Source of the DNA: Paracoccus tegillarcae
Lineage (GTDB): Bacteria > Pseudomonadota > Alphaproteobacteria > Rhodobacterales > Rhodobacteraceae
Direction: 5' to 3'
Assembly: GCF_002847305.1 (NCBI RefSeq)
Contig: NZ_CP025411.1
Location: 1-20,460 of the forward strand
DNA length: 20,460 nucleotides
Below, piece after piece: positions 1 through 19,041 of this stretch. Made by a program: the position numbers and the translations under genes. The notes below the pieces were generated by a model. The model was not told where the DNA came from. It saw only the letters and a program-made list of their open reading frames with translations, and made no database searches. How positions within the stretch are numbered: position 1 is the stretch's first letter; each line of letters begins with the position of its first letter.

Positions 1-866
1 CGGATGTCATGCGCCCTGAGAACAGCGGCCATGTGGTTTTCCAGTGAATGCCCCATGCGGGATTTGCGACGGTTCTGGACACTGAGGGAAAAGCTGATGA
101 AGCCGTCCACGTCCGTGCCGTCCGCGCTCGTGAACCCCGCCTCGATCCGCGAGGACACGACCCGGCGCTCCAGCCGCCGGAACAGGGCTTCCTCGTGGTC
201 CAGCCACGCGATGAGCGCCGCGTCCGGGTCGTCCTCGGCGCGGACCTCGGGCAGGGTGAGGCGGGCAAGATCGGAGAACTCGGCCGTCTTCGGGAACGTG
301 GTGCCGAACCTGTCGATGATGCTGTCCAGCTTGTCGGCTTCCGGTTCCTCGAACTCGACGCCGATCTCGTCCAGAATGAAGCGGGCCGCGAAATCCAGCT
401 CCGGTTCCTCGTCGGAGAACTCGCGGGACACGAACGACTTGCCCTCGGGACGCAGACCGAACAGCCAGAAGAGCTGCTGCTCGCTGGTGGACCCCTCCGG
501 GGCCACGATGAACCACAGGACGCCACCCTGGTCCTTGGCCAGGAACAGGGTGTCTCCAGCCTTCATGGCTTCCGTGACAGGGTTGGAAGGGTAGTAGAGC
601 CGCCATTCGGCGGCGCGGGGCTTGTTTAGGCGCGCGTCGTAGTGCGTGGCCCAGCTCTCCTCGGTGAAGCCCTCCTGATCGCCGCCCAGCCAGATATATA
701 TCGCCGGAAACCTCTCTTGGTGGTTCTCGCCCAGAAAGTCGTCCCGCATCTTCTTCGTCGTGCCAACCTCGTGCTGGTTGGATGTCTTCGGCTCGGCGTC
801 CACGGCGGACAGACGCTTGACCCCGACGCCCTCGAAATAGTCAGACAGTTGCCCGCGTTTTATCAC
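1..866 (-). CDS. EcoRII-like type II restriction endonuclease, N-terminal part (continues at 20460)
   Basis: This minus-strand frame starts at a GTG (866-864) preceded by a strong GGAGGTGA Shine-Dalgarno and overlaps the end of vsr by 26 bp. It stays open to base 1 and resumes in phase at 20460, giving 408 residues in total; EcoRII itself has about 404. The 288 complete codons here cover the EcoRII N-terminal (B3-like, effector-DNA-binding) domain, including SNQHEVG near residue 32, a WLFGLRPEGKSF segment, and the start of the catalytic domain at KSRMGHSLENHMAAVL. Family members cut at CCWGG, usually needing two copies (type IIE). Specificity here is inferred from the adjacent Dcm-like methyltransferase and Vsr. 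It is the last gene of a methyltransferase-vsr-endonuclease operon. A frame at 7-606 on the same strand is a shadow. Confidence 0.93.
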   Translation of the reverse strand, partial: MIKRGQLSDYFEGVGVKRLSAVDAEPKTSNQHEVGTTKKMRDDFLGENHQERFPAIYIWLGGDQEGFTEESWATHYDARLNKPRAAEWRLYYPSNPVTEAMKAGDTLFLAKDQGGVLWFIVAPEGSTSEQQLFWLFGLRPEGKSFVSREFSDEEPELDFAARFILDEIGVEFEEPEADKLDSIIDRFGTTFPKTAEFSDLARLTLPEVRAEDDPDAALIAWLDHEEALFRRLERRVVSSRIEAGFTSADGTDVDGFISFSLSVQNRRKSRMGHSLENHMAAVLRAHDI

Positions 867-1314
867 CGCTCACCTCCAGTGTTTTTATATCCGATTTCAA
901 CCACATGGCGCACTGATCGACAACGCTGTCGAAGGGCAGGCGGGTCTTTCCCTTCAACGCGCACTCCCAGACTATGCCGATGCGCCAGCCCGCTTCCGCC
1001 AGCGCCTCGCACTGGTGCCGGTCGCGCTCGATGTTGCTGCCGATCTTCTCGCGCCAGAAGTCCTGGCGGCTTTTGGGCCAGCGAAACAGGTGACAGTCAT
1101 GGCCGTGCCAGAAACACCCATGCACAAAGATCACCGCGTTCCGGCAGGTGAATACCAGGTCCGGCCTGCCCGGAAGATCTTTGCGATGCAGACGGAAGCG
1201 GAACCCGCGTCCGTGAAGCGCGGACCGGATTGCCAGCTCTGGCTTGGTGTTCTTCCCTTTGACAGCGGCCATCATCCGGCTGCGGACGCTGGTGGATACG
1301 ATGTCGGCGGGCAT
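841..1314 (-). CDS. vsr: Very-short-patch repair endonuclease Vsr
   Basis: This 157-residue protein nicks DNA 5' of the T in T:G mismatches produced by deamination of 5-methylcytosine at methyltransferase target sites. Visible family features are the catalytic Asp52 in LPGRPDLVF, the CFWHGHDC block, and zinc ligands Cys67, His72, Cys74 and Cys118. His70 corresponds to the active-site His69 of E. coli Vsr. The N-terminus (SxxMxxVKGKNTKPEL) and the length match full-length Vsr. Its ATG shares one base with the TGA of the upstream methyltransferase (TGATG), so the two are probably translationally coupled. Its 3' end overlaps the endonuclease start. The setting implies that it guards the CCWGG-type sites modified by its neighbour. 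Confidence 0.95.
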   Translation of the reverse strand: MPADIVSTSVRSRMMAAVKGKNTKPELAIRSALHGRGFRFRLHRKDLPGRPDLVFTCRNAVIFVHGCFWHGHDCHLFRWPKSRQDFWREKIGSNIERDRHQCEALAEAGWRIGIVWECALKGKTRLPFDSVVDQCAMWLKSDIKTLEVSGDKTRATV

Positions 1315-2660
1315 CAGTCCGCCGCAATCATACGCTCCAGCTCGGCAACCAGCGGTTCGCCTTCCTCCTGCGGAATGTCTGCTGTCCGCCGCGCCAGACG
1401 GGCCGGGGGCTGCGTCTCAGCCAGTGGAAGCATTGCCTGGACGGGATTGGGAACTTCCCGTCCGTCCAGCTCCATCGCTTCGGCGATCCGCGTCTGCATG
1501 AGCTGCGCGACGGCGTTCACGACCGGCACGACAACGGCATTGCCGAACTGGCGGTAGGCCTGTGTATCGGAGACAGGGATTTTCCACTCGGTCTGCCGGG
1601 GCTTCTCGAACCCCATCAGGCGGGCGCACTCACGCGGCGTGAGGCGGCGCGGGCGGTTGCCCTTCTGCTCGATCAGGATTTCGGAGCCATCCTTGTAGTA
1701 ACGGGCCGACAGGGTGCGGGCCACATCGTTGGGGCCGAACAGCGAAAACCCGAACCCGTTCCCGGCGCTGCGGTGCTTTTCCTTGTATCCCTGAAGGTAG
1801 GTCCACATGTGTTCGGTCAGTGTGTATTTCGGATCGACTGTCTTATCGAGGATGGTGCCAAGTGTAGGACCGTCACCCTCCGGCACGGCGAGCTGGTCGA
1901 AGTCGAACTCGATGCTGTGATCCTTGAAGCCGACAATGAAGATGCGCTCGCGCTTCTGGGGCACCCAGGGTGTCGAGCTGATGACCTTGTGGAACACCCG
2001 GTAGCCCAGCTCCTTCTCCAGCACATGAATGATCGTGGCGAAGGTCTTGCCGCCGTCATGGCGCTCAAGGTTCTTCACATTCTCCAGCAGGAAGGCAGGG
2101 GGCCGGTGATGGTCGATGATCTTGGCCAGATCATAGAACAGCGTGCCCTGCGTATCGCACAGGAAGCCGTGCGGACGGCCGAGGGCGTTCTTCTTGCTAA
2201 CGCCCGCAATCGAGAACGGCTGGCACGGAAAACCGGCCAGAAGAACGTCATGGTCCGGGATTGTCTCCGGCGCATCCGCGTAGGGCCGCACGTCTTCCGC
2301 GAAGACATGTTCGCTGTCGGCAGGCTCGGGGAAGTTGGCGCTGTAGGTCTCCCGGCTGAACCGGTCCCACTCGGCCGTGAACACGCAACGCCCGCCGATG
2401 GCCTCGAAGGGAAGGCGCAGCCCCCCGATCCCGGCGAAGAGGTCGATGAACCGGAACCCCGTGGGTCGCTCGCCCGTGCAGCGCGCGTCGGCCGTCTGGC
2501 GCAGCTTCTCCAGCCGGAGCTGGTCGATCCGCTTGCCTTCGCCCTTCATGTTGCGCCGGATTGTCCGGTCACTCACGCCCAGAAGCTCCGCCGCTGTGTC
2601 GATGTCGAGACCGGCGCGCTCCATCAGTTCCGCAAATTCTGTCCGTGGATGCGCGTTCAT
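1314..2660 (-). CDS. Dcm/M.EcoRII-like C5-cytosine methyltransferase with N-terminal HTH
   Basis: This 448-residue enzyme transfers a methyl group from S-adenosylmethionine to cytosine C5. The motifs appear in order: FIDLFAGIGG (motif I, about 71-80), GFPCQPFS with catalytic Cys146 (IV), ENVKN (VI), QKRERI (VIII), a target-recognition region, RPRRLTPRECARLMGF (IX) and QFGNAVVVPV (X). The recognition region (GNGFGFSLFGPN through ARTLSARYYKDGSEILI) closely resembles E. coli Dcm and M.EcoRII, so CCWGG methylation is likely. Residues 8-37 look like a helix-turn-helix (TAAELLGVSDRTIRR). M.EcoRII-type enzymes are known to repress their own promoter, and a short dyad lies 29 bp upstream of this start. 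The gene leads the operon with vsr and the EcoRII-like endonuclease. Confidence 0.95.
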   Translation of the reverse strand: MNAHPRTEFAELMERAGLDIDTAAELLGVSDRTIRRNMKGEGKRIDQLRLEKLRQTADARCTGERPTGFRFIDLFAGIGGLRLPFEAIGGRCVFTAEWDRFSRETYSANFPEPADSEHVFAEDVRPYADAPETIPDHDVLLAGFPCQPFSIAGVSKKNALGRPHGFLCDTQGTLFYDLAKIIDHHRPPAFLLENVKNLERHDGGKTFATIIHVLEKELGYRVFHKVISSTPWVPQKRERIFIVGFKDHSIEFDFDQLAVPEGDGPTLGTILDKTVDPKYTLTEHMWTYLQGYKEKHRSAGNGFGFSLFGPNDVARTLSARYYKDGSEILIEQKGNRPRRLTPRECARLMGFEKPRQTEWKIPVSDTQAYRQFGNAVVVPVVNAVAQLMQTRIAEAMELDGREVPNPVQAMLPLAETQPPARLARRTADIPQEEGEPLVAELERMIAAD

Positions 2661-2688
2661 GTGCCTGCCCCTGCTCTGTGTCTGTTAT

Positions 2689-2701
2689 TGACAACATGTC
2701 A
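2689..2701. promoter_or_regulatory. Dyad upstream of the methyltransferase, possible autoregulatory operator
   Basis: TGACA-aca-TGTCA is a 13-bp inverted repeat 29 bp upstream of the methyltransferase ATG, inside the 141-bp intergenic region. The downstream enzyme carries an N-terminal HTH, so the dyad is a plausible operator for self-repression. That role is inferred; only the symmetry is seen. The same region also holds an ACATTTGTTC / ACATTTTGTTC direct repeat at about 2738-2759. Confidence 0.4.
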
Positions 2702-2801
2702 TAATCTGTCCCAGCGGCTTTGGGAACCCCGTTTCTGACATTTGTTCACATTTTGTTCTAACACCGCGTTAAGGCCGAACAGCGCGGGATGAGGCAGAAT
2801 T

Positions 2802-3521
2802 TCAGATATGATCCCAAACCACTTCGGTGGCGAGATACTCGCGGATCACCGTTCGCACGACAAATTGGCCTTGGTCCATTACCGCGAAACGGTAGACATC
2901 TGGTTGAACGACCACCCACCCATCTGGCCTCATATCTTCGCCGGATACCAGCCGCTGCATCAAGCGGCTGCCTACCTCAGGCCATCCGGCCCCGTAGTCG
3001 ATAGTTTCAAAGTTGGCCAACATATCCGGGGACAGGGTAGGGATCGGCTGGATCGCCACCCGCGCCGGTTCACCCTCCGCTGGTTGTCCATGCTCGAACA
3101 GCACATGGCCTCGGGCATTCTTCACAACGACATTCTGAATCCTGGCCATGTCCGGGACAAAGGTGATCCGATCGTTTCCATCCTCGTCCTTGACGATCTG
3201 AAGTTGGGACTCAATTTCATCCTGAAGGCGGTAGTTGCTGTCCAGTATCTTCTCGGATCGCGCTACAACCTGCTGATCCGGGTCTGCGCTCCCCGCGAGA
3301 ACCGATCCCAGGAATGCTGTGAAATATTCCTCGTCATTCGAGAACGAAGTGTTGCAGGACTTGCATATGCGGACTGTCGGAAGGTCATTCGGAAAGGGGC
3401 GATCAAGTATGGTTTTTGAGGGAACATGGTCGAGATTGCTCTCGACATTTTTCAAGCCAGCATTGCAGTGGATACACCACCCCTTGTGCCGTTCGTCGGC
3501 ATAATCCCGCATTTGCTTCAT
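2802..3521 (-). CDS. HNH-type zinc-finger protein, putative endonuclease
   Basis: This 239-residue protein has an N-terminal treble-clef/HNH-like core: CIHC (residues 16-19), LDHVPSK (about 30-36), then CKSCNTSFSNDEEYF (about 53-67). The arrangement CxxC - DHVP - CxxCN - DEEYF recurs in a family usually annotated as hypothetical or HNH endonuclease. The final HNH histidine is not obvious, so nuclease activity is not certain. The remaining 170 residues contain no motif I recognise. The start is supported by a GAAAGGAAA Shine-Dalgarno. It lies 29 bp downstream of the resolvase on the same strand, between two DNA methyltransferase systems. A role as nuclease partner of the divergent methyltransferase/ATPase pair is inference. 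Confidence 0.75.
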   Translation of the reverse strand: MKQMRDYADERHKGWCIHCNAGLKNVESNLDHVPSKTILDRPFPNDLPTVRICKSCNTSFSNDEEYFTAFLGSVLAGSADPDQQVVARSEKILDSNYRLQDEIESQLQIVKDEDGNDRITFVPDMARIQNVVVKNARGHVLFEHGQPAEGEPARVAIQPIPTLSPDMLANFETIDYGAGWPEVGSRLMQRLVSGEDMRPDGWVVVQPDVYRFAVMDQGQFVVRTVIREYLATEVVWDHI

Positions 3522-3550
3522 CGGTAATTTCCTTTCGACTTCAATGAGTT

Positions 3551-4090
3551 TTACGCCCGCCGCACGGTTCTTTCGCTGACTTTGAACAGTCGCGCGATCT
3601 CCTGAACGGCACGGTGTTCGTCATCTCTCATGCGGCGCACCTCGTTTTTTTGAGCAGGCGACAGGGCAGGGGGCCTGCCACCGATGCGGCCACGCTTGCG
3701 CGCGGACGCCAGACCTTCCTTGGTCCGTTCGGAAATCCGTTCCCGCTCGAACTGTGCAATGGATGCGAAGACGTGGAACACAAGGCGACCGGCCGGTGTC
3801 GTCGTATCTATGTCCTCGGCAAGGGACCGGAAGCCGGCACCGCGTTCGCGGATCGTGTCCACGATTTCCAGAAGATCCTTCAACGACCGGGCAAGGCGGT
3901 CGTATTTGGTGACGGTTACGATATCGCCGTCGCGGAGCTGGTCCAGCATTCTGTCCAGCTCGGGCCTCTCACGCTTCGATCCACTGATCCGGTCGGCAAA
4001 CAGCTTGTTTGCTCCGGCCGCCGTCAGAGCGTCCGTCTGGGCATCGAGGCTCTGGTCATCCGTGCTGACGCGGGCATATCCGATAATCAT
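3551..4090 (-). CDS. Serine resolvase/invertase family recombinase
   Basis: This 179-residue site-specific recombinase has the family layout: MIIGYARVSTDDQ with catalytic Ser9 of RVST; TKYDRLARSL; the AEDIDTTTPAGRLVFHVFASIAQFERERISERTKEGL dimer-helix region; and a C-terminal helix-turn-helix (QEIARLFKVSERTVRRA). The ATG at 4090 was chosen because MIIGYARVST is the conserved N-terminus. The frame is open further upstream to 4333, but that part has no family character and runs through the start of the divergent methyltransferase. Known relatives resolve plasmid multimers or transposon cointegrates, or invert DNA. No transposase is present, so multimer resolution or a relic of insertion are both possible. 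The 88-bp divergent gap is where a res site could lie. Confidence 0.93.
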   Translation of the reverse strand: MIIGYARVSTDDQSLDAQTDALTAAGANKLFADRISGSKRERPELDRMLDQLRDGDIVTVTKYDRLARSLKDLLEIVDTIRERGAGFRSLAEDIDTTTPAGRLVFHVFASIAQFERERISERTKEGLASARKRGRIGGRPPALSPAQKNEVRRMRDDEHRAVQEIARLFKVSERTVRRA

Positions 4091-4178
4091 CTTGCGAGAT
4101 GGCCAGAAACGTATAGTTTTGTCCAGAATGTAAAGACCAACCAAAGCCCCGACAGGTGGCGCGTGGAGCCATAAAAGA

Positions 4179-5258
4179 TTGGAAGATGGACCCGAGCCAG
4201 AACCGTTAGGTGAAGTTGTTGATCTATTCTGCGGCGTCGGCTCTCTGAGCCACGGCCTCATGCGGGCCGGTTTCGATATCAGGGCAGGATACGACACCGA
4301 CAGACGCTGCCAACACGCATTCGAGACAAACAACGAGGCGACTTTCCATACAAGGGATGTTGCGCTGTTGCAGCCGGAAGAAATCCTGGCTCACTTCTCA
4401 GGCGAGCGTCCGTCCGTGCTGGCAGGTTGCGCTCCATGCCAACCCTTCTCGACTTACAAGCAGCGCTATGACGAAGACCCGAGATGGGATTTGGTTGATA
4501 GCTTTGCGCGACTTGCCGTGAAGGTCTCGCCAGACTTCATCACAATGGAAAACGTCCCCGCACTTCTGAAATACAAGGCTGGGGCCGTGTTCTCGAAATT
4601 CAGCCAGACTCTTCAGAATGCAGGATACCATGTGAGTTGGCAGGTCGCGAAATGTGAGCTGTTCGGCGTGCCGCAGAAACGACGACGCCTCGTTGTGGTT
4701 GCCTCTAAGGCCGCGAATCCGCCCCAGCTCTCGCCGACGCATCAAACACCGCTGACGGTGAAGGATGCGATTGCAAACCTGCCGCCTGTCGCGGCGGGAA
4801 CAAGAGCGGAAAACGATCCACTGCACATCTCGGCGTCCCTGTCCGAGACCAATCTACGCCGCATCCGCGCATCACAGCCGGGCGGAACTTGGCGGGACTG
4901 GCCCTACGAACTGAGGGCAAAGTGTCATCAGCGATCGTCCGGGAAAACATACTCGGGGGTGTATGCGCGCATGGTCTGGGATGCGCCGTCTCCGACGATG
5001 ACAACCCAATGCTATGGGTATGGCAACGGTCGATTTGGTCATCCTGAGCAGGACAGGGCCATTACCTTGAGGGAAGCGGCGCTCTTGCAGTCCTTCCCGC
5101 CCCAGTATTCATTTTTGCCCGATGGCGAAGCTCCGAACATGTCTGAAGTCGGCAGGTGGATCGGCAACGCCGTTCCGGTCGGGCTGGCGCAGGCGATCGG
5201 CAGATGTATCGGTTCGGTGATTGAGGAGAACGAGTTTGGCAGCAAAGAAATCACCTGA
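4179..5258 (+). CDS. C5-cytosine DNA methyltransferase, second and distinct
   Basis: This 359-residue enzyme carries the C5-MTase motifs: VVDLFCGVGSLSHGL (motif I, about 13-27), GCAPCQPFS with catalytic Cys87 (IV), MENVPALL (VI), FGVPQKRRRLVVVAS (VIII), TLREAALLQSFP (IX) and IGNAVPVGLAQAI (X). It is clearly different from the Dcm-like enzyme in motif details and recognition region, and its target cannot be read from sequence. The start is a TTG at 4179; no ATG is available in frame before motif I. It overlaps the downstream ATPase gene by 23 bp, implying one transcription unit. C5-MTases next to GHKL ATPases are known from predicted restriction-modification clusters with MutL/MORC-like proteins. 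Confidence 0.93.
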   Translation: MEDGPEPEPLGEVVDLFCGVGSLSHGLMRAGFDIRAGYDTDRRCQHAFETNNEATFHTRDVALLQPEEILAHFSGERPSVLAGCAPCQPFSTYKQRYDEDPRWDLVDSFARLAVKVSPDFITMENVPALLKYKAGAVFSKFSQTLQNAGYHVSWQVAKCELFGVPQKRRRLVVVASKAANPPQLSPTHQTPLTVKDAIANLPPVAAGTRAENDPLHISASLSETNLRRIRASQPGGTWRDWPYELRAKCHQRSSGKTYSGVYARMVWDAPSPTMTTQCYGYGNGRFGHPEQDRAITLREAALLQSFPPQYSFLPDGEAPNMSEVGRWIGNAVPVGLAQAIGRCIGSVIEENEFGSKEIT

Positions 5259-6894
5259 TCCCTACCGCTTCGAGATTTCGCTGAGTGTCCTGAACCATCT
5301 CGGGCGGAACCTATACAGGAACTTTGTCACGGTTCTTGGCGAGGCAATTTCAAACTCTTGGGACGCCAACGCCAAGAACGTCTGGATCGAGATTGACCGG
5401 GAAAATTCGTCATTTTCGATAAAGGACGATGGCGACGGCATGGACAGCGGAGATTTTCAGGGAAAATTCCTGAAGATCGGATATTCCAAGCGCAAGTCGG
5501 GTGGCAGCAAGTCTTCCACCGGACGGCCCTATATCGGTGCCAAAGGTATAGGCAAACTGGCACTGCTTTCATGCGCAAAGCGCGTTTCCGTGTTCTCCAA
5601 AACAGGCGGCACAGACTACGTGGGCGGTGTTATCGACAATGCGGGCCTGGACGGCGCAATTCTTGGTGACAGAAGCACCGAAGAGTATCCGCTGGAACAA
5701 CTGGACTTCTCGCTCATCAGCGAACTGCGTGAAGGCCACAGAAAGGGCACGATAATCTACTTCGAAGGCACGAACGACCAGCTCAAGAACTCCGACGCCT
5801 ACATAAAGAAGCTTCTTGCCCTGAGCTTCAAATTCTCGCTGCTGGACGAAGAGTTTACGATCCATGTCAGCGGCGATCCCGTCACTGTTGACGACCTGAA
5901 GCCGTTGTCCGACGCGACCCAGTTTCTATGGAGCGTCAACGGCTACACCGACGCCTATATTGATGGATTGAACAATCTCGAACTGCCCGTGTCGGAAGTG
6001 ACGACACCGTTGGATATCAAGGGGTTTGTCGCATCGGTAAAGAAACCGGCCAACCTCAAAATCACCGGAACCGACGAGCGCGCCACAATCGACCTGTTTG
6101 TGAATGGCCGACTCCGCGAGAAGAACATCATACGGCACATCCCATCCCAACGAATTGTGGAAAGCTATATCTACGGCCAAATCCACTTTGACACCCTCGA
6201 TCGCGAAGGCACCGATCCCTTTACCAGCAGCCGGGAAGGTATCGTGGAAGACGATGAGAAATTCCGCAGTCTGATGGATTATCTCAAGCGGGACCTGCTC
6301 ACGAAGATCATTGATGAGTGGGACAAGTTTCGCCTGGAAGTCAAAGACGAAGGTGACGACGACAACACACGGAAGTCCAAACGGGATCGAAAGGCGCAGG
6401 CGCTTGTGTCAGAGGCCAAGAAGGACTTTCAACCTGATGACGACGCGCCCACAAAGGATATTGTGGAGGAGTGGCTCACTGAAATGCAGGCGGATGCGGA
6501 GTTCAACACCTCTGCATACGTCGACTGTTTTCTGTCCGAAAATTTGGTCCGCAAATACATTGGCCACAAAAATCTCAGCCCGATCGACGGTATTCAGAAA
6601 GAGATTGTGAAATTCAAAGAGCGCGAAGAGAAGACGAAGCAGGCTGCGAATATCAGCTTCCCGATCCGGCAAATCTCTCTTGACCTGAGCTACTTGGATA
6701 TGGACGCACTGGCGTTCACGGCGGAGGGCAGCAAGAACACAAACACTCAATCACTTTGGGGTGACGCTATCGGCTTCAAGCCCGTCAGAAATGCCGTAGG
6801 CCACACAGGACGCCTGACAAATGTGGCCAAAAACCATTTGAACACGACCTTTGAGAATATCAAAGCACGGGTCAGGACTCTGCTGTCAAACTGA
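5236..6894 (+). CDS. GHKL ATPase (MORC/MutL/Hsp90-like), restriction-modification associated
   Basis: This 552-residue protein has an N-terminal Bergerat ATP-binding fold: EAISNSWDA (residues 36-44, Mg-binding Asn40), KDDGDGM (63-69) and GAKGIGKLALLS (101-112). A Ser5-domain-2/transducer-like middle region follows (VNGRLREKNIIRHI), then a charged stretch at about 375-395 and a helical C-terminus. TTG at 5236 was chosen over TTG 5221 because GAGGAG lies 7 bp before it and the protein then starts MAAKKSPDPYRFEIS. It overlaps the methyltransferase 3' end. Iyer, Abhiman and Aravind described MutL/MORC-like GHKL ATPases in bacterial restriction-modification clusters, and this pair fits that class. 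The presumed role is an ATP-driven DNA clamp controlling cleavage. The linked nuclease would have to be the HNH protein or a domain not recognised here. Confidence 0.85.
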   Translation: MAAKKSPDPYRFEISLSVLNHLGRNLYRNFVTVLGEAISNSWDANAKNVWIEIDRENSSFSIKDDGDGMDSGDFQGKFLKIGYSKRKSGGSKSSTGRPYIGAKGIGKLALLSCAKRVSVFSKTGGTDYVGGVIDNAGLDGAILGDRSTEEYPLEQLDFSLISELREGHRKGTIIYFEGTNDQLKNSDAYIKKLLALSFKFSLLDEEFTIHVSGDPVTVDDLKPLSDATQFLWSVNGYTDAYIDGLNNLELPVSEVTTPLDIKGFVASVKKPANLKITGTDERATIDLFVNGRLREKNIIRHIPSQRIVESYIYGQIHFDTLDREGTDPFTSSREGIVEDDEKFRSLMDYLKRDLLTKIIDEWDKFRLEVKDEGDDDNTRKSKRDRKAQALVSEAKKDFQPDDDAPTKDIVEEWLTEMQADAEFNTSAYVDCFLSENLVRKYIGHKNLSPIDGIQKEIVKFKEREEKTKQAANISFPIRQISLDLSYLDMDALAFTAEGSKNTNTQSLWGDAIGFKPVRNAVGHTGRLTNVAKNHLNTTFENIKARVRTLLSN

Positions 6895-6950
6895 CGGCTT
6901 CTTAGGTCAGCCGATCCGAAAGGAAGAGCGCGGCCGTAACTTGGCGGTTT

Positions 6951-6995
6951 CCGGCAAAAACCTGCCACAACCTCTTTTATTTTGCCGGGGGTTTT
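6951..6995. terminator. Stem-loop with T-run between converging genes
   Basis: CCGGCAAAA (6951-6959) pairs with TTTTGCCGG (6980-6988) across a 20-nt loop and is followed by GGGTTTTTG, a Rho-independent-like signal for the plus-strand ATPase operon. A further hairpin, GCCAAGT-gactg-ACTTGGC (7003-7021), follows and may serve the converging metal operon. The 209-bp gap 6895-7103 shows no gene. Confidence 0.6.
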
Positions 6996-7103
6996 TGTCC
7001 CTGCCAAGTGACTGACTTGGCGTGGGGCAGGGCAGGGCGGCACAAACGGCCGTTTACGCCGTGGCTTGACGGTTATGGCCCGGCGTTATTGTCTTTGCAC
7101 CAG

Positions 7104-7940
7104 TCACTCTCGCAGATCAGCTCGCGCGTCTCGGATGATTGTCCACGAAGAATGCAGGAACAGTGCCGCTATACCGAAGGCGACGATCAGGTCCGGCCAG
7201 GCGCTGCCAAACCATGCGACAAGCCCGGCCGCGACTACCACGGCGAAGTTGCCGATGGCATCGTTGCGCGAGAACAGCCAGACCGCCCGCATGTTGGCGT
7301 CTCCCTTCCGGTGCTTCAGAAGGGGTAAGACGGCAAGGATATTGACGATCAACGCGCCCATAGCGAATGCGCTCATCAGCCCTGCCTCGGGCGTGGCTTG
7401 GTTCAGGACGCGCCAGAGCGTGCTGGCAACGACCCCGAGACCCAAAAGGCCAAGGAACAGGCCTTGGATCATGGCGGATCGGGCACGCCACGTCAGGCTC
7501 CAGCCGATGGCGAGCAAGCCGAGAAACGTAATCGCCCCGTCGCCGAGAAAATCGAGGGCATCCGCCTTCAGCGCCTGCGAGCCGGACAGAAACCCACCCG
7601 CCATTTCCACGACACCATAGCCAAGGTTGAGCACCACCACGATCCAGAGCGCCCAGCGATAGGACGGGTCCTTGTAGCCCGGATCGGCCGAGACATCGTC
7701 ACCCTCGATCCGCTCGAAACCGTAGCCTGTCGATTCCAGCGCCAAGCGCACCTTTGGAAGATAGTTTTCCGCGATGCGCAGCGTGATGATGTGGGTTGCC
7801 GCCGAAACCTTGACGTCCTCCGCCGAGACGCCAGCCGACCGCGCAGCACGCTCGATCTCGGCCACATCCTTCGCGCAATCCATCCCCTGCACCCGCATCC
7901 GGATCGGAGCGGTTTGCGCGCCGGTTTCGGGTGTGCTCAT
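7104..7940 (-). CDS. Cation diffusion facilitator with N-terminal HMA-like domain
   Basis: This 278-residue protein has an N-terminal ferredoxin-like heavy-metal-associated domain (about 10-80, RVQGMDCAKDVAEIE) and six hydrophobic segments typical of CDF transporters, from about residue 95 onward. In TM2 the metal-site region reads DALDFLGD, and in TM5 SRNDAIGN, so the classical HxxxD pairs are replaced. The HMA loop has only Cys22: the second Cys of CxxC is a Lys/Asp region, so metal binding there may be weak or altered. There is no C-terminal cytoplasmic metal-binding domain as in CzcD. It sits 9 bp after czcD, so it is part of the metal-inducible operon. It probably exports a divalent metal across the inner membrane; which metal is unknown. 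Confidence 0.87.
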   Translation of the reverse strand: MSTPETGAQTAPIRMRVQGMDCAKDVAEIERAARSAGVSAEDVKVSAATHIITLRIAENYLPKVRLALESTGYGFERIEGDDVSADPGYKDPSYRWALWIVVVLNLGYGVVEMAGGFLSGSQALKADALDFLGDGAITFLGLLAIGWSLTWRARSAMIQGLFLGLLGLGVVASTLWRVLNQATPEAGLMSAFAMGALIVNILAVLPLLKHRKGDANMRAVWLFSRNDAIGNFAVVVAAGLVAWFGSAWPDLIVAFGIAALFLHSSWTIIRDARADLRE

Positions 7941-10382: not shown

Positions 10383-11267
10383 TTACTCGGCGGCCATCCG
10401 GTCGGCCTGCGCGGTGCGGTCCATGATGTAATCCACGGCCTTCTGGGCCTCGGACGCGGCGCGGAATATCGCGCGGCTGTCTTCCTTCATCGCCTCCAGC
10501 CATCCTTCGACATAGGCCGCGCTCTGGTCGAATTCAGGCTCCACCCCGATCTGCGCGCAGAGCATGCAGTTTCCGATCTCCGCGACCAGCTCCTCGAACG
10601 CGTAGGCCTTGCGGTCATTGAACCGCCCCAAACGGTCCAGCCGCTTTGTTGCGCCTGTCCAGTGGGTCAGCTCATGCGCCAAGGTGCCGTAATACCCTGC
10701 GGCCCGGTGAAATGTACCAATCGGAGGCATGTGAATCCTGTCGATCTTGATGTTGTAATAGGCGCGCGGCTCCTCGGTCACGTCGATCTGCGCGCCGGTC
10801 GCGGCAAAGAACGCCTCCAGCTCGGGGTCGGCCTCAGTGCCAAGATCACGGGGCGGATCGGGCAAGATGTAGAACTCGGCGGGCAAGCCCTCGATCTGGT
10901 CTGCGTTGAACACGCGGTAGGCCTTGGCATAGGGGATTTGCCGTTCCTCGCCGTTCTCGTCCTCGCGCTCGACAGTGCCGTATTTCACCACGGTTGCAGA
11001 TTTCTCACCCTTGCGGACATGACCCCCAAGCTGCTTGGCCTGATTGAACGTCATCCAGCGGGCTGAACTGTAATCCTTGGCCATCGCGGTTGCCCAAAGC
11101 ATCAGGATGTTGATGCCCCGATAGGCTTCACCGTTGAACCGTTCCGGCAAGCAGACCCCTGCCCCTCCGCCGGTCCACGGCTTGCGCCATGGCGGCGTCC
11201 CCGTCTCGATCTGCGCAATGATCTGGTTGGTGACATGGGTGTAAACGTCGAATTTCTCTTTGGTCAT
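10383..11267 (-). CDS. ArdC-like antirestriction protein with zincin peptidase domain
   Basis: This 294-residue protein has an N-terminal ssDNA-binding ArdC domain (MTKEKFDVYTHVTNQIIAQI, GTPPWRKPW, YRGINILMLW, TFNQAKQLGGHVRKGEKS) and a C-terminal metallopeptidase-like domain with the zinc motif HELTHWTG and downstream EELVAEIGNCML. ATG at 11267 was chosen because an AGGAGG lies just before it and the conserved N-terminus begins there; the open frame extends to 11420 without family sequence. ArdC proteins travel with plasmids and shield incoming DNA from host restriction. Here it shares a plasmid with the plasmid's own restriction system, and lies toward the mobilization genes. It is probably expressed early after transfer. 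Confidence 0.92.
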   Translation of the reverse strand: MTKEKFDVYTHVTNQIIAQIETGTPPWRKPWTGGGAGVCLPERFNGEAYRGINILMLWATAMAKDYSSARWMTFNQAKQLGGHVRKGEKSATVVKYGTVEREDENGEERQIPYAKAYRVFNADQIEGLPAEFYILPDPPRDLGTEADPELEAFFAATGAQIDVTEEPRAYYNIKIDRIHMPPIGTFHRAAGYYGTLAHELTHWTGATKRLDRLGRFNDRKAYAFEELVAEIGNCMLCAQIGVEPEFDQSAAYVEGWLEAMKEDSRAIFRAASEAQKAVDYIMDRTAQADRMAAE

Positions 11268-11838
11268 TTGTGACCCTCCTCGCATGATGCGGTCGGGGTC
11301 AGTTTCCCTTTCCGCCGATGGGCGGGCCTTCCTGTTCTGTTGTTTGGAATGCCCATGCATTCCGAACGGCAGAGCAGGTAAGGGCAAAGCCCGTCCTGCG
11401 GCCTGGCGGGGCCGTGACAACCGGGTGGAGGGCGTGAATCTGGGAGGGAACCGCGCGCCTGCGCGTGGGAGGAACCGGGATTCTCGACCGGAACCGACGC
11501 CGAAGGCGGCGCTTGCCGGTTTTCACGGCCCTGCCGGGATGGCAGGCGGATCAACAGGATTTGGAAAGGGTCAGGGCTGGGGTGAGCGGTCCTCGGCCCG
11601 TCGATCCCCTGCTCTGTCTAACGCTCAAAGCGAGACCGGCACACCGGCCGGGATCACGGGATCATGTTTCCCCGAAGCATGGAAACCGGTCGTTCCGGCT
11701 AGACGCGGCGAAAGAGGAAAGAGAGCCCAGAGTCACGGATCCTGCGCTTCGCACGAACGTCAGCTTTGCTATGGGGCGGTATTGCAGCGGAACTGTCGAT
11801 GAGTTGACAGTGAGTGGGACCTCTGCAAACCTTCGGCA
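11268..11838. other. 571-bp stretch without a supported gene
   Basis: Several frames are open here, but they are Arg/Pro/Gly-rich, overlap one another and resemble no family I know. What stands out are dyads: CGCAT-g-ATGCG at 11281-11291, the 22-bp hairpin at 11331-11378, and CCTGCC-gggat-GGCAGG near 11540. The region should hold the ardC-like promoter on its left side and that of the SRPBCC gene on its right side. Confidence 0.6.
11331..11378 (+). repeat. 22-bp long hairpin with 4-nt loop, possible structured RNA
   Basis: Positions 11331-11352 pair continuously with 11357-11378 around the loop CCAT. All 22 positions pair in plus-strand RNA, four of them as U-G wobbles. On the minus strand those four become A-C mismatches. 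One skipped base (T at 11379) allows four further pairs (CCTT/AAGG). The wobble asymmetry favours a plus-strand RNA or single-stranded DNA role. No known RNA family is recognised. Confidence 0.7.
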
Positions 11839-12451: not shown

Positions 12452-12914
12452 TCAGCCCGACCGCATCGCCGCGACCAGCTCGTCCACATGCATTGCCTTC
12501 ATGCCCGCCGCGCGCGAACCCATGATGTCGGCGTGGGGCTTATCACCGACGAACAGCACCCGGCCCGCCTTGACCTGCAACCCGTCCAGCACCGCCGCGT
12601 AAATCGCAGGTTCCGGCTTGATCGCCTCGACCTTGCAGGACAGCACCTCCACGTCCAGCGGATCGGGCAGTGCGCCTCGCAGCGCCGTCACGTAGTCGCT
12701 GGCGAGATTGGAACAGAGCGCCAGGCGCAGCTCCTTGCCGCGCAACCGCGCCCAGATATCCGCCATGCCGCTTCTCCGGCGACAGAGCATTGAACAGCGG
12801 CCGGAAGGCCTGCCGTTTGTCGGTGATTTCGGCCAGCGTTCCGAAGGCGTCGAAACACACCGCCTCGATCCCGTCGAAGATCGGCGGAAGATCAGTGAGA
12901 GAGGCCGGGGTCAC
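12452..12914 (-). pseudogene. HAD-superfamily hydrolase, internally deleted and frameshifted
   Basis: Two minus-strand frames each hold one part of a HAD hydrolase. The upstream frame has the nucleophile motif (IEAVCFDAFGTL, around 12851) and ends in family sequence at about 12771 (ALSPEK). The downstream frame resumes at about 12766 with ADIWARLRGKELRLALCSNLA (motif II), then AIKPEPAIYAAVL (motif III) and VLFVGDKPHADIMGSRAAGM (motif IV). In intact relatives the two parts are separated by a cap domain of roughly 60 residues or more; here only a few bases remain, and the frame changes at the joint. So the cap was deleted and the frame broken. Its 5' end overlaps the relaxase 3' end by 23 bp. 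Confidence 0.85.
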
Positions 12915-14199
12915 GGTCGATCTCCCTGTCGATCTCACGTTCGTTCTCTTTCTCGACCTCCTGATCCTTTTCCTGGTCGCGCGCGTCCTCGATCTCCAGC
13001 TTCTCGCGCGGCTTGTTCAGCACGTCTTTCAGGCGCTCGTTCACGGACGGCTTGCGCTCTTCCCGCCCGGTGTCCTCGCCAAGCTCGGGATCGCTATGCC
13101 CGTCCAGCCTGTGAACCGCCGCCTGGCCATCGCGGCCCGCGTCCTTTTCCATGATCTCCTTCAGGCGCTCGCGCGCGTAATTGCGGCCTTCCAGCTTCGG
13201 CGCGTCGTCCCGATCTTCTGACCGACCCACGACCCGCGCCAACCGTTCCCGCATATCTTCCGGCCCGTCCCGCGCGCTACGCTCCTTCGCGGCAGCCGCC
13301 CGTAGCGCAGCCAGACCGGCCGAGACACGCCCCTGCCCCGCGTCCCGCTCGGCCCCGTAGGTCTCCCGCGCGATGTCCAGCCGCTCGCGCAACTCGCGGA
13401 AGGCGGCGCGGGCCTGACGAGCCGCATGGACCACGGCCCCGCGCTCGGTGACCGGGACATATTCCCGACCCTGGCGCTCGGCCATCGCCTTGGCCCGGCG
13501 CTCCATGGAGTTCGCCGCCGGTCCCAGCTTCAGCTCCGGGTCACGGTCCAGCTCCTCGGCAGAAAGCTGATCACCCCGCTCCAGCGCTGCCTCTCGCTGC
13601 GCTTCGAGCGACCGGTGATCGACCCGCTCGACCTCCCCTGCCCGCTCCAGGGCGCGGTTCTGTAGATCGGCCCAGACACCGCGCATCTGCTCGATCTCCA
13701 CACCGCCGGTCTTCGCGGAATCGAGTACGCGCGTCTTGGCCGTGAAGCCCTGCGCTTCCAGCTTGCGGGTGGAGGTCAGCACGTGGGCGTGGTGGTTGCG
13801 CTGATCACCCTCGCGATGAGGGGCGTGGATCGCAACATCGACGGCCACCCCGTAGCGGCTGACCAGCTCCTGAGCGAAGTCGCGGGTGATCTGCGAGCGG
13901 TCGTCGGCGCTGATCTCGGACGGCAGGGCCAGCTCCCATTCGCGGGCGGTGACGGAGTTGCGGCGGGTCTCGCTGGCCTCGACCTCGTTCCAGAGTTTCG
14001 AGCGGTCCAGCGCCCAATCAGGGGCGTCCTTCGGGGCCAGGATGAAGGTCTCCTCGATGCCCTGCTTGCGGGTGTAATCGTGGACGCGGCCTTCGCGCTG
14101 GCACTCGATGCGCTCACCGACGCGGTAGGCTGCCGCCGCCGTGGCGGAGCGCCCGGCGCTGCGTTTGATCGTCTTCACGGAGAGGTGGTAGCTGGCCAT
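12892..14199 (-). CDS. mobA: MobA/MobL-type relaxase (MOBQ)
   Basis: This 435-residue DNA strand transferase nicks oriT and stays covalently bound to the 5' end. The N-terminal domain reads MASYHLSVKTIKRSAGRSATAAAAYRVGE; Tyr25 occupies the position of the catalytic tyrosine of RSF1010 MobA. The metal-binding histidine motif is at about 125-140 (HAPHREGDQRNHHAHVL). The second half is highly charged and helical, ending in Glu/Asp/Arg-rich repeats (EREIDREIDRD), with no helicase or primase domain, so it is shorter than Ti TraA. It is divergent from the traD/traG-like genes across an oriT region, an arrangement seen in Ti and IncQ-related mobilization loci. Its 3' end overlaps the broken HAD gene. 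Confidence 0.93.
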   Translation of the reverse strand: MASYHLSVKTIKRSAGRSATAAAAYRVGERIECQREGRVHDYTRKQGIEETFILAPKDAPDWALDRSKLWNEVEASETRRNSVTAREWELALPSEISADDRSQITRDFAQELVSRYGVAVDVAIHAPHREGDQRNHHAHVLTSTRKLEAQGFTAKTRVLDSAKTGGVEIEQMRGVWADLQNRALERAGEVERVDHRSLEAQREAALERGDQLSAEELDRDPELKLGPAANSMERRAKAMAERQGREYVPVTERGAVVHAARQARAAFRELRERLDIARETYGAERDAGQGRVSAGLAALRAAAAKERSARDGPEDMRERLARVVGRSEDRDDAPKLEGRNYARERLKEIMEKDAGRDGQAAVHRLDGHSDPELGEDTGREERKPSVNERLKDVLNKPREKLEIEDARDQEKDQEVEKENEREIDREIDRDPGLSH

Positions 14200-17682: not shown

Positions 17683-17828
17683 TGGGATGCTGAGGGCAAA
17701 GTGGCTGACGGGTCAGCGGAGTCTGAGAAGCTGGGTGTTATATATGTGTTAGAGTCTGTGTTACGCGAATCATGACATCCACTAAGCAACTGAAGTTGCT
17801 ACGTAAAACAGCCCGATTTTCGGCCTTC

Positions 17829-17975
17829 GGTGGGTGATATTACGATACGGGGTGTGTGATCTTACGAAAGATGGTGTGTGATCTTACGAAAGCCGGTCGG
17901 TGGGTGATACTACGAATCCCTTGCCTTGGTGGGTGAAATTACGAATAGTGTCCGAATGGTGGGTGAAATTACGAA
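17829..17975 (+). repeat. oriV: Replication origin iterons, six copies
   Basis: Six direct repeats of GGTGKGTGAWMTTACGAA start at 17829, 17851, 17873, 17899, 17928 and 17958. The first ends in ACGAT, copies 2 and 3 carry GTGTGTGATC, and copies 5 and 6 are identical. Spacing grows from 22 to 30 bp. They lie directly upstream of, and the last inside, the 5' end of repA, so they are probably RepA binding sites for initiation and autorepression. A dyad, AGCAACT-ga-AGTTGCT, lies upstream at 17785-17800. Confidence 0.9.
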
Positions 17976-19041
17976 GCCGGATCGGACGCCTCTCCTCCCC
18001 TTGCGACACGCACAGGGGGATTTCTTTGTTTGCGATATCTTCGATGCAGCGCCCAAGGGCGACATGGCGTCGATGGCCCACCCGATTTTCACGCTCTCGA
18101 CCAAGCCGGACACCAAGAAACGGCGCTACGTGGCGGCTGATGGAAAGAGCTACGTGGAGATCAGACCCAACATGATCGGGCTTGCGACCGTCCATGACCG
18201 CGATGTGCTGATCTACTGCATTTCGCAGGTGATGGCGGCTCTGAATGACGGCAAACAGGTTCACAGAACCCTCCGATTCAAGGCCTATGACCTTCTTGTC
18301 GCGACGAACCGTCCTGTCGCCGGAACCGGATACAGCGGTCTGAAAGCCGCGCTGGAACGTCTCCAGGGGACGCAGATCGAAACCAATATCACCACGGGGG
18401 GCGTGGAACAGATTGACGGCTTCAGCCTGATAGACCGCTACCGCATTGTTCGCGAAACCCGTGATGGCCGGATGCTCGATCTCGAAGTCACCCTTTCCGA
18501 TTGGGTCTTCAACGCGATTGCCGGGGACGACGTTCTGACGCTCAATCGCCGCTACTTCCAGCTTCGCAAGCCTCTGGAACGTCGTTTGTATGAGCTGGCC
18601 CGCAAGCAATGCGGGACGCAACCGGAGTGGAAGTGCGGCTTGGACAAGCTGAAGGACCGAACCGGCTCCACGTCTTCCGACAAGGAGTTTCGGCGTCTCG
18701 TCAGAGCCATCTGCAAGGCTGATGAAGAACACAACCACATGCCGGATTATGCCTTTAGAATGGAAGCGGACATCCTCACGGTAACGCCCAAACCGGAGTT
18801 TTTGGAGAACTACGCTCCCAAACCGGAACAGGACAGGCTGACCGGCGGCTACGTCCTGCCCCTCTCGCCCGACACACTGGAGCGGGCGCGGGAACTGGCT
18901 CCCACATGGGACATCACGGTTCTGGTCGGAGAGTGGCGGAGCTACGCCGCCAGACAAAAGGAACCACCGAAGAACCCGGATGCCGCGTTCCTCGGTTTCT
19001 GCAAGAGTTGGTTCAAAAAGCGTGGCCGCAACGGCTGGTAG
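17956..19041 (+). CDS. repA: Plasmid replication initiator RepA (RPA family)
   Basis: This 361-residue initiator belongs to the alphaproteobacterial replication initiator A family: RHAQGDFFVCDIFDAAPKGDMASMAHPIFTLSTKPD, RPNMIGLATVHDRDVLIYCISQVMAAL, then the winged-helix core with LNRRYFQLRKPLERRLYELARKQCG and a second helix-turn-helix (LDKLKDRTGSTSSDKEFRRLVRAI). It should bind the iterons just upstream. Start choice is uncertain: GTG 17926, ATG 17956 and TTG 18001 are all in frame. ATG 17956 is the only ATG and keeps the family's N-terminal RHxxxDFFVCDI segment. It places the last iteron within the first seven codons. A 357-residue antisense frame is a shadow. Confidence 0.92.
   Translation: MVGEITKPDRTPLLPLRHAQGDFFVCDIFDAAPKGDMASMAHPIFTLSTKPDTKKRRYVAADGKSYVEIRPNMIGLATVHDRDVLIYCISQVMAALNDGKQVHRTLRFKAYDLLVATNRPVAGTGYSGLKAALERLQGTQIETNITTGGVEQIDGFSLIDRYRIVRETRDGRMLDLEVTLSDWVFNAIAGDDVLTLNRRYFQLRKPLERRLYELARKQCGTQPEWKCGLDKLKDRTGSTSSDKEFRRLVRAICKADEEHNHMPDYAFRMEADILTVTPKPEFLENYAPKPEQDRLTGGYVLPLSPDTLERARELAPTWDITVLVGEWRSYAARQKEPPKNPDAAFLGFCKSWFKKRGRNGW

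Follow-up and report, generated by a model that had tools for sequence, protein, structure and literature searches.

BbrUII/HgiDII-type Type II restriction-modification (R-M) systems (model NF050001) consist of a gene for a DNA methyltransferase (MTase) followed by a gene for an ATPase with a GHKL head, and their enzyme ends in PD-(D/E)xK. We analyzed the contig NZ_CP025411.1 of Paracoccus tegillarcae, a sequence of 20,460 bases (hereafter the window, which is the whole contig of the assembly), and focused on a four-gene block that includes a C5-cytosine MTase gene and a GHKL ATPase gene. The pair resembles the BbrUII/HgiDII type in gene order, in the GHKL head and in the target region of the MTase, whereas the ATPase has an all-helical, putatively HEPN-like domain in place of PD-(D/E)xK. 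We consider it fairly probable that the two genes form a modification-gated defense module, in which an RNA-cutting HEPN-like domain would be the effector.

Three further groups of proteins are comparable with the window ATPase. In the accessible text of Anantharaman et al. 2013 (PMC3710099), paraMORC ATPases encoded in R-M loci carry fused HEPN (Ymh) domains, for which a PrrC/RloC-like role is proposed; the window protein likewise combines a GHKL ATPase with a C-terminal HEPN-like domain in an R-M neighborhood, but it has no match to Hypoth_Ymh (PF09509) at E ≤ 5. According to the same text, the anticodon nucleases PrrC and RloC also couple an ATPase to a C-terminal HEPN domain, and PrrC is coupled to R-M. 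Their head, however, is an SbcC/Rad50-like ABC ATPase unrelated to the GHKL head, and PrrC sits with Type Ic R-M, whereas the window ATPase sits with a single C5-MTase. VcSduA, a GHKL-type Shedu (paraMORC3) protein, has anti-phage activity that is lost in mutants, as described in the available part of PMC12137116. It shares with the window ATPase the GHKL head and a C-terminal nuclease (predicted in the window), but its tail is a DUF4263 PD-(D/E)xK DNase; that part of the paper nowhere uses the word methyltransferase.

The methyltransferase–ATPase pair

Relatives of the ATPase were confirmed in a genome collection by homolog alignment, and the best 80 of 145, down to approximately 48% identity, were kept, so that more distant relatives are under-sampled. 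Adding pP73D, the window itself, and L002, which is a second cut of the window, brought the total to 83 loci. A C5-MTase gene was located directly upstream of the ATPase gene (position −1) in 78 of the 83 loci and on the same strand in 77 of these 78, and this agrees with the suggestion of a preliminary description that the window holds a second defense-type module with an MTase–GHKL core. The two genes overlapped in 71 of the 78 pairs with a median gap of −11, an overlap that is overstated because the most upstream start codons were taken; in the window, the ATPase gene begins before the stop of the MTase gene at 5258. The 80 loci include Bacteroidota, Chloroflexota, Planctomycetota, candidate phyla radiation (CPR), and two archaeal metagenome-assembled genomes (MAGs). 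Outside the Roseobacter-group plasmids, the core unit is two genes, the MTase and the GHKL ATPase. The ATPase was found in 2 of 394 genomes sampled from the host's family, host included. In 28 of the 83 loci, a Vsr gene lay no more than six called genes away (immediately downstream in 18), and by profile 36 had one anywhere in the stretch; the window's own Vsr belongs to another operon, at its left end. As at many of these loci, Vsr is also found near the BbrUII/HgiDII-type relatives L095, L163, and L166.

The only Pfam families that matched the ATPase at E ≤ 5 were HATPase families, among them HATPase_c_3 (5.8e-18). The BbrUII/HgiDII model NF050001 aligned with residues 15–378 only and scored 275.7 bits, below its curated cut-off of 550; with PADLOC models, the head scores as that of a Type II restriction enzyme. 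Six relatives with similar heads (L116, which exceeds the NF050001 cut-off, L117, L163, L164, L095, and L165) carry a C-terminal [ED]-[LI]-K core, which we read by eye as PD-(D/E)xK, i.e., as a restriction endonuclease (REase)-type tail. The window ATPase lacks this core and is helical there; as already stated in the preliminary description, the block contains no helicase and its ATPase no PD-(D/E)xK. The GHKL motifs are intact, and only the residue number of the asparagine given earlier needs adjustment: the closest homologs among the matches listed are mostly 552 amino acids long, which would place the start at TTG 5236, so that Asn40 corresponds to N45 in the 557-residue numbering used here. 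Foldseek and VIA-align searches with the model of the whole ATPase returned lists taken up by GHKL proteins, and the same held for the viral library, with phage RIIA and topoisomerases. In a tree of the ATPase heads, the HEPN-type and REase-type proteins are separate; because support is weak (73/98), branches are long, and the Mza row falls on the HEPN side, no claim is built on this tree.

The catalytic residue proposed for the MTase, Cys87, was confirmed and lies within the motif PC. We took residues 222–300 (79 columns) as the target-recognition region (TRD). Its identity to the MTase partners of four REase-type ATPases was 66, 66, 67, and 73%, versus 47–57% over the whole proteins; the TRD values are inflated because the stretch includes conserved motif columns. 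In the same stretch, the identity to eight other HEPN-type MTases was 48–84%. A point against a common target is the distant partner MTase of L167, which has a TRD identity of 32%. Given this value and the range among the HEPN-type MTases, effector type does not divide the MTases by TRD. From these sequence comparisons, we infer that HEPN-tailed and REase-tailed systems modify and monitor identical or similar sites and differ in the effector. The site recognized by M.HgiDII is GTCGAC, according to the accessible text of PMC5867850, and by analogy the window MTase probably has the same specificity. GTCGAC occurs twice on the plasmid against 8.4 expected, yet it ranks only 15th of 32 palindromes in avoidance, which does not favor this assignment, and in three relatives the ranks are 18/34, 11/32, and 8/27. 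Since the site is not singularly avoided, avoidance was dropped as evidence of specificity.

One locus, L081 (1275–10368, from a Planctomycetota MAG), has the DISARM genes drmA, drmB, and drmC (PADLOC), then directly a GHKL–HEPN gene, and then an HNH-family gene.

The helical tail and the proposed mechanism

The C-terminus of the ATPase, which had been named for structure prediction, is all-helical in an AlphaFold 2 (AF2) model, with no strand after residue 346. The tail helices span residues 412–449, 456–475, 494–502, 512–527, and 534–556. An R-x4-H motif is located at the end of one of them: R523 is in helix 512–527, H528 is just past its end, and helix 534–556 follows. R-[ND]-x3-H is present in 81 of 81 loci, with N after R in 28 and D in 53 (the pattern search caught R-x4-H in 80 of the 81; L034 has S where other loci have P). 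E-x3-R is likewise present in 81 of 81 loci, and in the window it lies in helix 412–449, which would correspond to HEPN helix 2. In an alignment of 39 tails, R and H are among 13 invariant columns (39/39). As characterized in the available text of PMC3710099, HEPN domains have a helical fold, an Ex3[KR] motif and, where helix 3 ends, an Rx4-6H motif in which R is followed by N, D, or H. In the tail, R is likewise followed by a polar residue, the motif sits at a helix end within a helical domain, and Ex3[KR] is conserved. By motif and helix position only, the tail is a putative HEPN-like domain and the likelier effector of the block.

Several results weigh against this reading or against a two-gene unit. 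The C5-MTase is not adjacent to the ATPase in L008, L014, L018, and L023 and was not found in the 17.6-kb stretch of L081. The structure searches reached the ATPase head only and left the tail without a fold match. HEPN_Swt1 (Pfam) matched one of 56 family members (E 0.026); Hypoth_Ymh, which does not match the window ATPase as mentioned above, was not among the matches listed for the 56 members (25 of 38 families). With hhalign, the tail scored 0.4% against a Swt1 set and 0.1% against a Ymh set (five and three sequences), and the decoys scored higher (the HNH family 0.6%, the ATPase's own head 0.8%); this test is powerless, because the positive control, Swt1 against Ymh, also gave 0.1%. A PDB profile search returned only DEPTOR chains (E 0.5–0.6). 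A protein database search with the tail alone retrieved pieces of the same family, and none of the best 120 of 311 matches carried a HEPN annotation. Separately, a 307-residue metagenomic protein (P0318) that matches the HEPN-like tail also has a precomputed DNA_methylase (PF00145) domain; it may join the two core genes, as a fusion or a fragment.

If the tail is a HEPN RNase, the module could operate as follows. The C5-MTase would mark the cell's own DNA, probably at GTCGAC, and the MORC-like GHKL ATPase, presumably a dimer, would detect target sites that lack the mark, which is presumably also the role of its BbrUII/HgiDII relatives. On unmodified DNA, ATP would drive the ATPase to close; two HEPN domains would then meet and cut RNA, stopping translation and aborting the infection. 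The marking and sensing steps follow the BbrUII/HgiDII analogy, and the RNA-cutting step follows the proposals for PrrC/RloC and the paraMORC–Ymh fusions; the RNase activity, the trigger, the specificity, and the abortive outcome are likewise inferred. We are evenly divided on a broader formulation, in which a Type II-like modification system keeps the methylation check, with the C5-MTase target region and GHKL sensor of the GTCGAC enzymes HgiDII/BbrUII, the penalty for unmodified DNA becomes ATP-gated RNA cleavage by HEPN, the two-gene operon spans bacterial phyla and archaea, and sibling systems plug the same sensor into a DNase or an RNase.

An alternative that cuts no nucleic acid is a MORC-like silencer, in which the ATPase would clamp or compact unmodified DNA and the helical tail would be an RNA- or DNA-binding or dimerization part. 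It draws on the VIA-align ranking, in which the ATPases of MORC3, SMCHD1, MORC4, and MORC2 come first, and on the fact that the HEPN assignment is from motif and helix position. Nevertheless, the R and H needed by a catalytic HEPN are invariant in the tail alignment and kept in 81 of 81 loci, and we regard a silencer as unlikely.

The four-gene cassette, its companions, and the plasmid

The four open reading frames (ORFs) of the preliminary description are present where it placed them; they are listed in Table 1 together with the domains of the ATPase.

Table 1. Features of the four-gene block in the window, with the evidence for each
Feature	Coordinates	Strand	Evidence
HNH-like Cys4 protein, 239 amino acids	2802–3521	−	Pfam HNH_5 below cut-off; invariant Cys4/DH/N; gene contexts
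Small serine recombinase, resolvase/invertase type	3551–~4090/4111 (ORF open to 4111 and beyond)	−	Pfam Resolvase 3.3e-48
C5-cytosine DNA MTase, core gene 1, TTG start	4179–5258	+	Pfam DNA_methylase 6.8e-59; position −1 in relatives' loci; TRD comparison
GHKL ATPase head and S5-like region, core gene 2, residues 1–378	5221–6354	+	Motifs from E41/N45, D69, G106 intact
C-terminal HEPN-like domain, residues ~384–557, predicted RNase effector	6370–6894	+	E440-x3-R444, R523-N-A-V-G-H528; helical model
Cassette of all four genes	2802–6892	.	blastn boundaries of DNA similarity with the pP73D/Thalassovita lineage

The same four genes occur in the same order and orientation in plasmid pP73D (NZ_CP004397.1, Celeribacter indicus), a Thalassovita contig (where the copy is divided over the contig ends, L003 and L101), a Pseudooceanicola MAG, and Roseovarius sp. 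A-2. Because it recurs in these four other Roseobacter-group replicons, the arrangement is not due to chance. The pP73D and Thalassovita copies are 89–93% identical to the window at the DNA level over 2802–6892, and the cassette edges found by blastn coincide with the two outer stop codons. However, the five copies represent two plasmid lineages and not five independent cases, since the Thalassovita and pP73D sequences are 99.6% identical across 4.8 kb and the window, L004, and L005 have further plasmid DNA in common; the cassette edges therefore rest on a single between-lineage comparison.

At the left end of the window is an R-M operon with a Dcm-like MTase (1314–2660) and Vsr (841–1314), whose restriction enzyme gene runs off position 1 and is named in matched records only as "type II restriction endonuclease". 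This operon is also present in the Pseudooceanicola MAG and Roseovarius sp. A-2. In pP73D, the left operon is dcm–vsr–MvaI/BcnI, which matches that of the window only at 68–72% in short stretches, and the block is thus separable from its left R-M neighbor, as had been proposed. One cassette therefore lies beside two R-M operons, i.e., window 1–2762 (also L004 and L005) versus L001 2180–5175 (also L101, 99.6% identical to L001). If the unconfirmed EcoRII label given earlier to the window operon holds, both left operons would presumably read CCWGG, as if one had been exchanged for the other. In addition, the GHKL ATPase gene of pP73D is interrupted by an IS1380 transposase gene (L001 7688–11105), and the MTase gene there is intact.

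The HNH-like protein was proposed in the preliminary description as the effector. It matches Pfam HNH_5 (PF14279) with an E-value of 0.0036 and 17.6 bits, below the gathering cut-off of 27.5; 24 of 25 family members match at E ≤ 1 (best 6e-5). C16, C19, D31, H32, C53, C56, and N57 are invariant across the 25 aligned sequences, and the Cys4/DH/N pattern is present in 114 of 120 matches listed; we take the four cysteines to be a zinc site, accompanied by D/H and N. The gene is found in the window, pP73D, L004, and L005, in the Thalassovita contig at its far end, and in 10 of 394 genomes sampled from the host's family, host included. In a restriction system of all four genes, or of HNH, MTase, and ATPase, this protein would be the DNA-cutting part. 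The sharing of the block 2802–6892 by two plasmid lineages with different neighbors is consistent with such a unit. HNH genes also lie close to the pair in L081 (1 base after the ATPase) and L050 (331 bases ahead of the MTase on the same strand), near MTase and REase-type GHKL genes in L095, and near MzaB, MTase, and Vsr genes in L104. In the available text of Iyer et al. 2008 (PMC2292703), paraMORC1 might co-occur with HNH genes. However, L050 and L081 are the only loci with an HNH gene among 77 ATPase loci outside the cassette group, although a few such neighbors may be missed because 10 of the 77 stretches, which are 4.2–17.7 kb long, are under 8 kb. This is largely the outcome that had been named as telling against the proposal, homologs of the MTase–ATPase pair consistently lacking HNH. 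Moreover, the GHKL partner in L095 has its own REase-like tail, and the HNH gene of the window is transcribed away from the pair. We consequently rejected HNH as the effector, and we hold a restriction system built around it to be improbable.

The HNH gene is nevertheless not a random neighbor. Omitting L050 and L081, which were found via the ATPase, from 22 HNH loci outside the cassette group left 20, in some of which (L094, L157, L158, and L159) the context is short or one-sided. A Vsr gene was located within 2.3 kb of HNH in eight of them (L095, L096, L099, L104, L154, L155, L161, and L162), or in 6 of 18 when three alike Rhizobium/Sinorhizobium plasmids count once; two of these HNH–Vsr pairs are directly adjacent, with gaps of 2 and 38 bases. 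The rate is far above the background, in which 45 Vsr places in 100 related genomes give approximately 0.0015 expected per 12.7 kb. The surroundings are MzaB/MTase/Vsr in L104 and MTase–GHKL(REase)–Vsr in L095. Because defense genes cluster in general, this is an association and not a sign of joint function. HNH is probably an accessory nuclease that recurs beside 5-methylcytosine (5mC)/Vsr systems, a companion in this plasmid group and not part of the core. In L097 (G355:C18:5000–18365), which has a related plasmid backbone, a lone HNH-family gene lies between the relaxase gene and a gene like window 10383–11420; a search of this stretch for MTase, Vsr, and GHKL gave no match.

The recombinase had been suggested as a possible switch. 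No direct or inverted repeats of at least 12 bases were found around it in 3500–4300, the 25 inverted pairs listed (of 27) in 2600–7200 are 72–92% complementary and unremarkable, and all five copies have a single orientation; an invertible switch was rejected on these grounds. DNA relatives of the gene (79–84% identity) are on Octadecabacter and Roseobacter plasmids, where HNH, C5-MTase, and GHKL are not annotated within the 8.5 kb viewed; on the Roseobacter plasmid, an N6-methylase gene and a gene of the phospholipase D family lie nearby. We read the recombinase as a plasmid resolvase and a companion rather than part of the defense unit. Of the earlier interpretation, a defense-type MTase–GHKL module remains, without the HNH effector or the recombinase switch.

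The window is a small alphaproteobacterial plasmid, since 10214–17443 matches the part of pP73D with the zincin, relaxase, and transfer genes and replication and ParA-like genes were recognized by eye among the ORFs. The stretch 17828–17976, upstream of the presumed replication gene, contains direct repeats of the form GGTGGGTGAAATTACGAA in several nearly identical copies (by eye), which look like plasmid iterons. A HAD-hydrolase-like gene (by eye) at 12452–12938 is split across two overlapping reading frames and is probably a broken remnant. A plasmid addiction module, with the MTase as antidote, the ATPase–HEPN protein as poison upon plasmid loss, and little anti-phage effect, would suit the small-plasmid location, the typing of pP73D as mobilizable, and the IS1380-split ATPase beside an intact MTase that a poison/antidote pair predicts, but we think it very unlikely, as several homologs are on megabase contigs (e.g., L011, L012, L018, and L020) and addiction is compatible with defense and hence not exclusive. 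The module favored here, in which MTase marking gates a HEPN-like effector, probably also serves plasmid retention.

Earlier descriptions and significance

GHKL ATPases associated with methylases, Vsr, and HNH have already been described (PMC2292703, in the accessible part), and those with C5-methylases and Vsr also appear in the available text of PMC8011034. Figure 2 of PMC2292703, whose legend lists Erythrobacter and Roseovarius, is a possible earlier notice of the gene pair. In the open-licence literature, judged by title and the start of the abstract, we found no description of a two-gene MTase and GHKL–HEPN family or of the shared target region. GHKL–HEPN fusions in R-M neighborhoods, by contrast, are known already from the available part of PMC3710099.

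The locus is a warning to annotation pipelines, given that PADLOC models treat the head as that of a Type II restriction enzyme although the DNA-cutting part is absent. If the proposed mechanism is true, methylation-based recognition of self and non-self DNA would be wired directly to RNA destruction inside one ATPase, without a second system. Relatives that match in methylase target region and ATPase head but end either in a DNase or in a presumed RNase would then lend themselves to a clean domain-swap test of how the GHKL/MORC module reads methylation and fires its effector, and how this module reads methylation bears on eukaryotic MORC proteins too.

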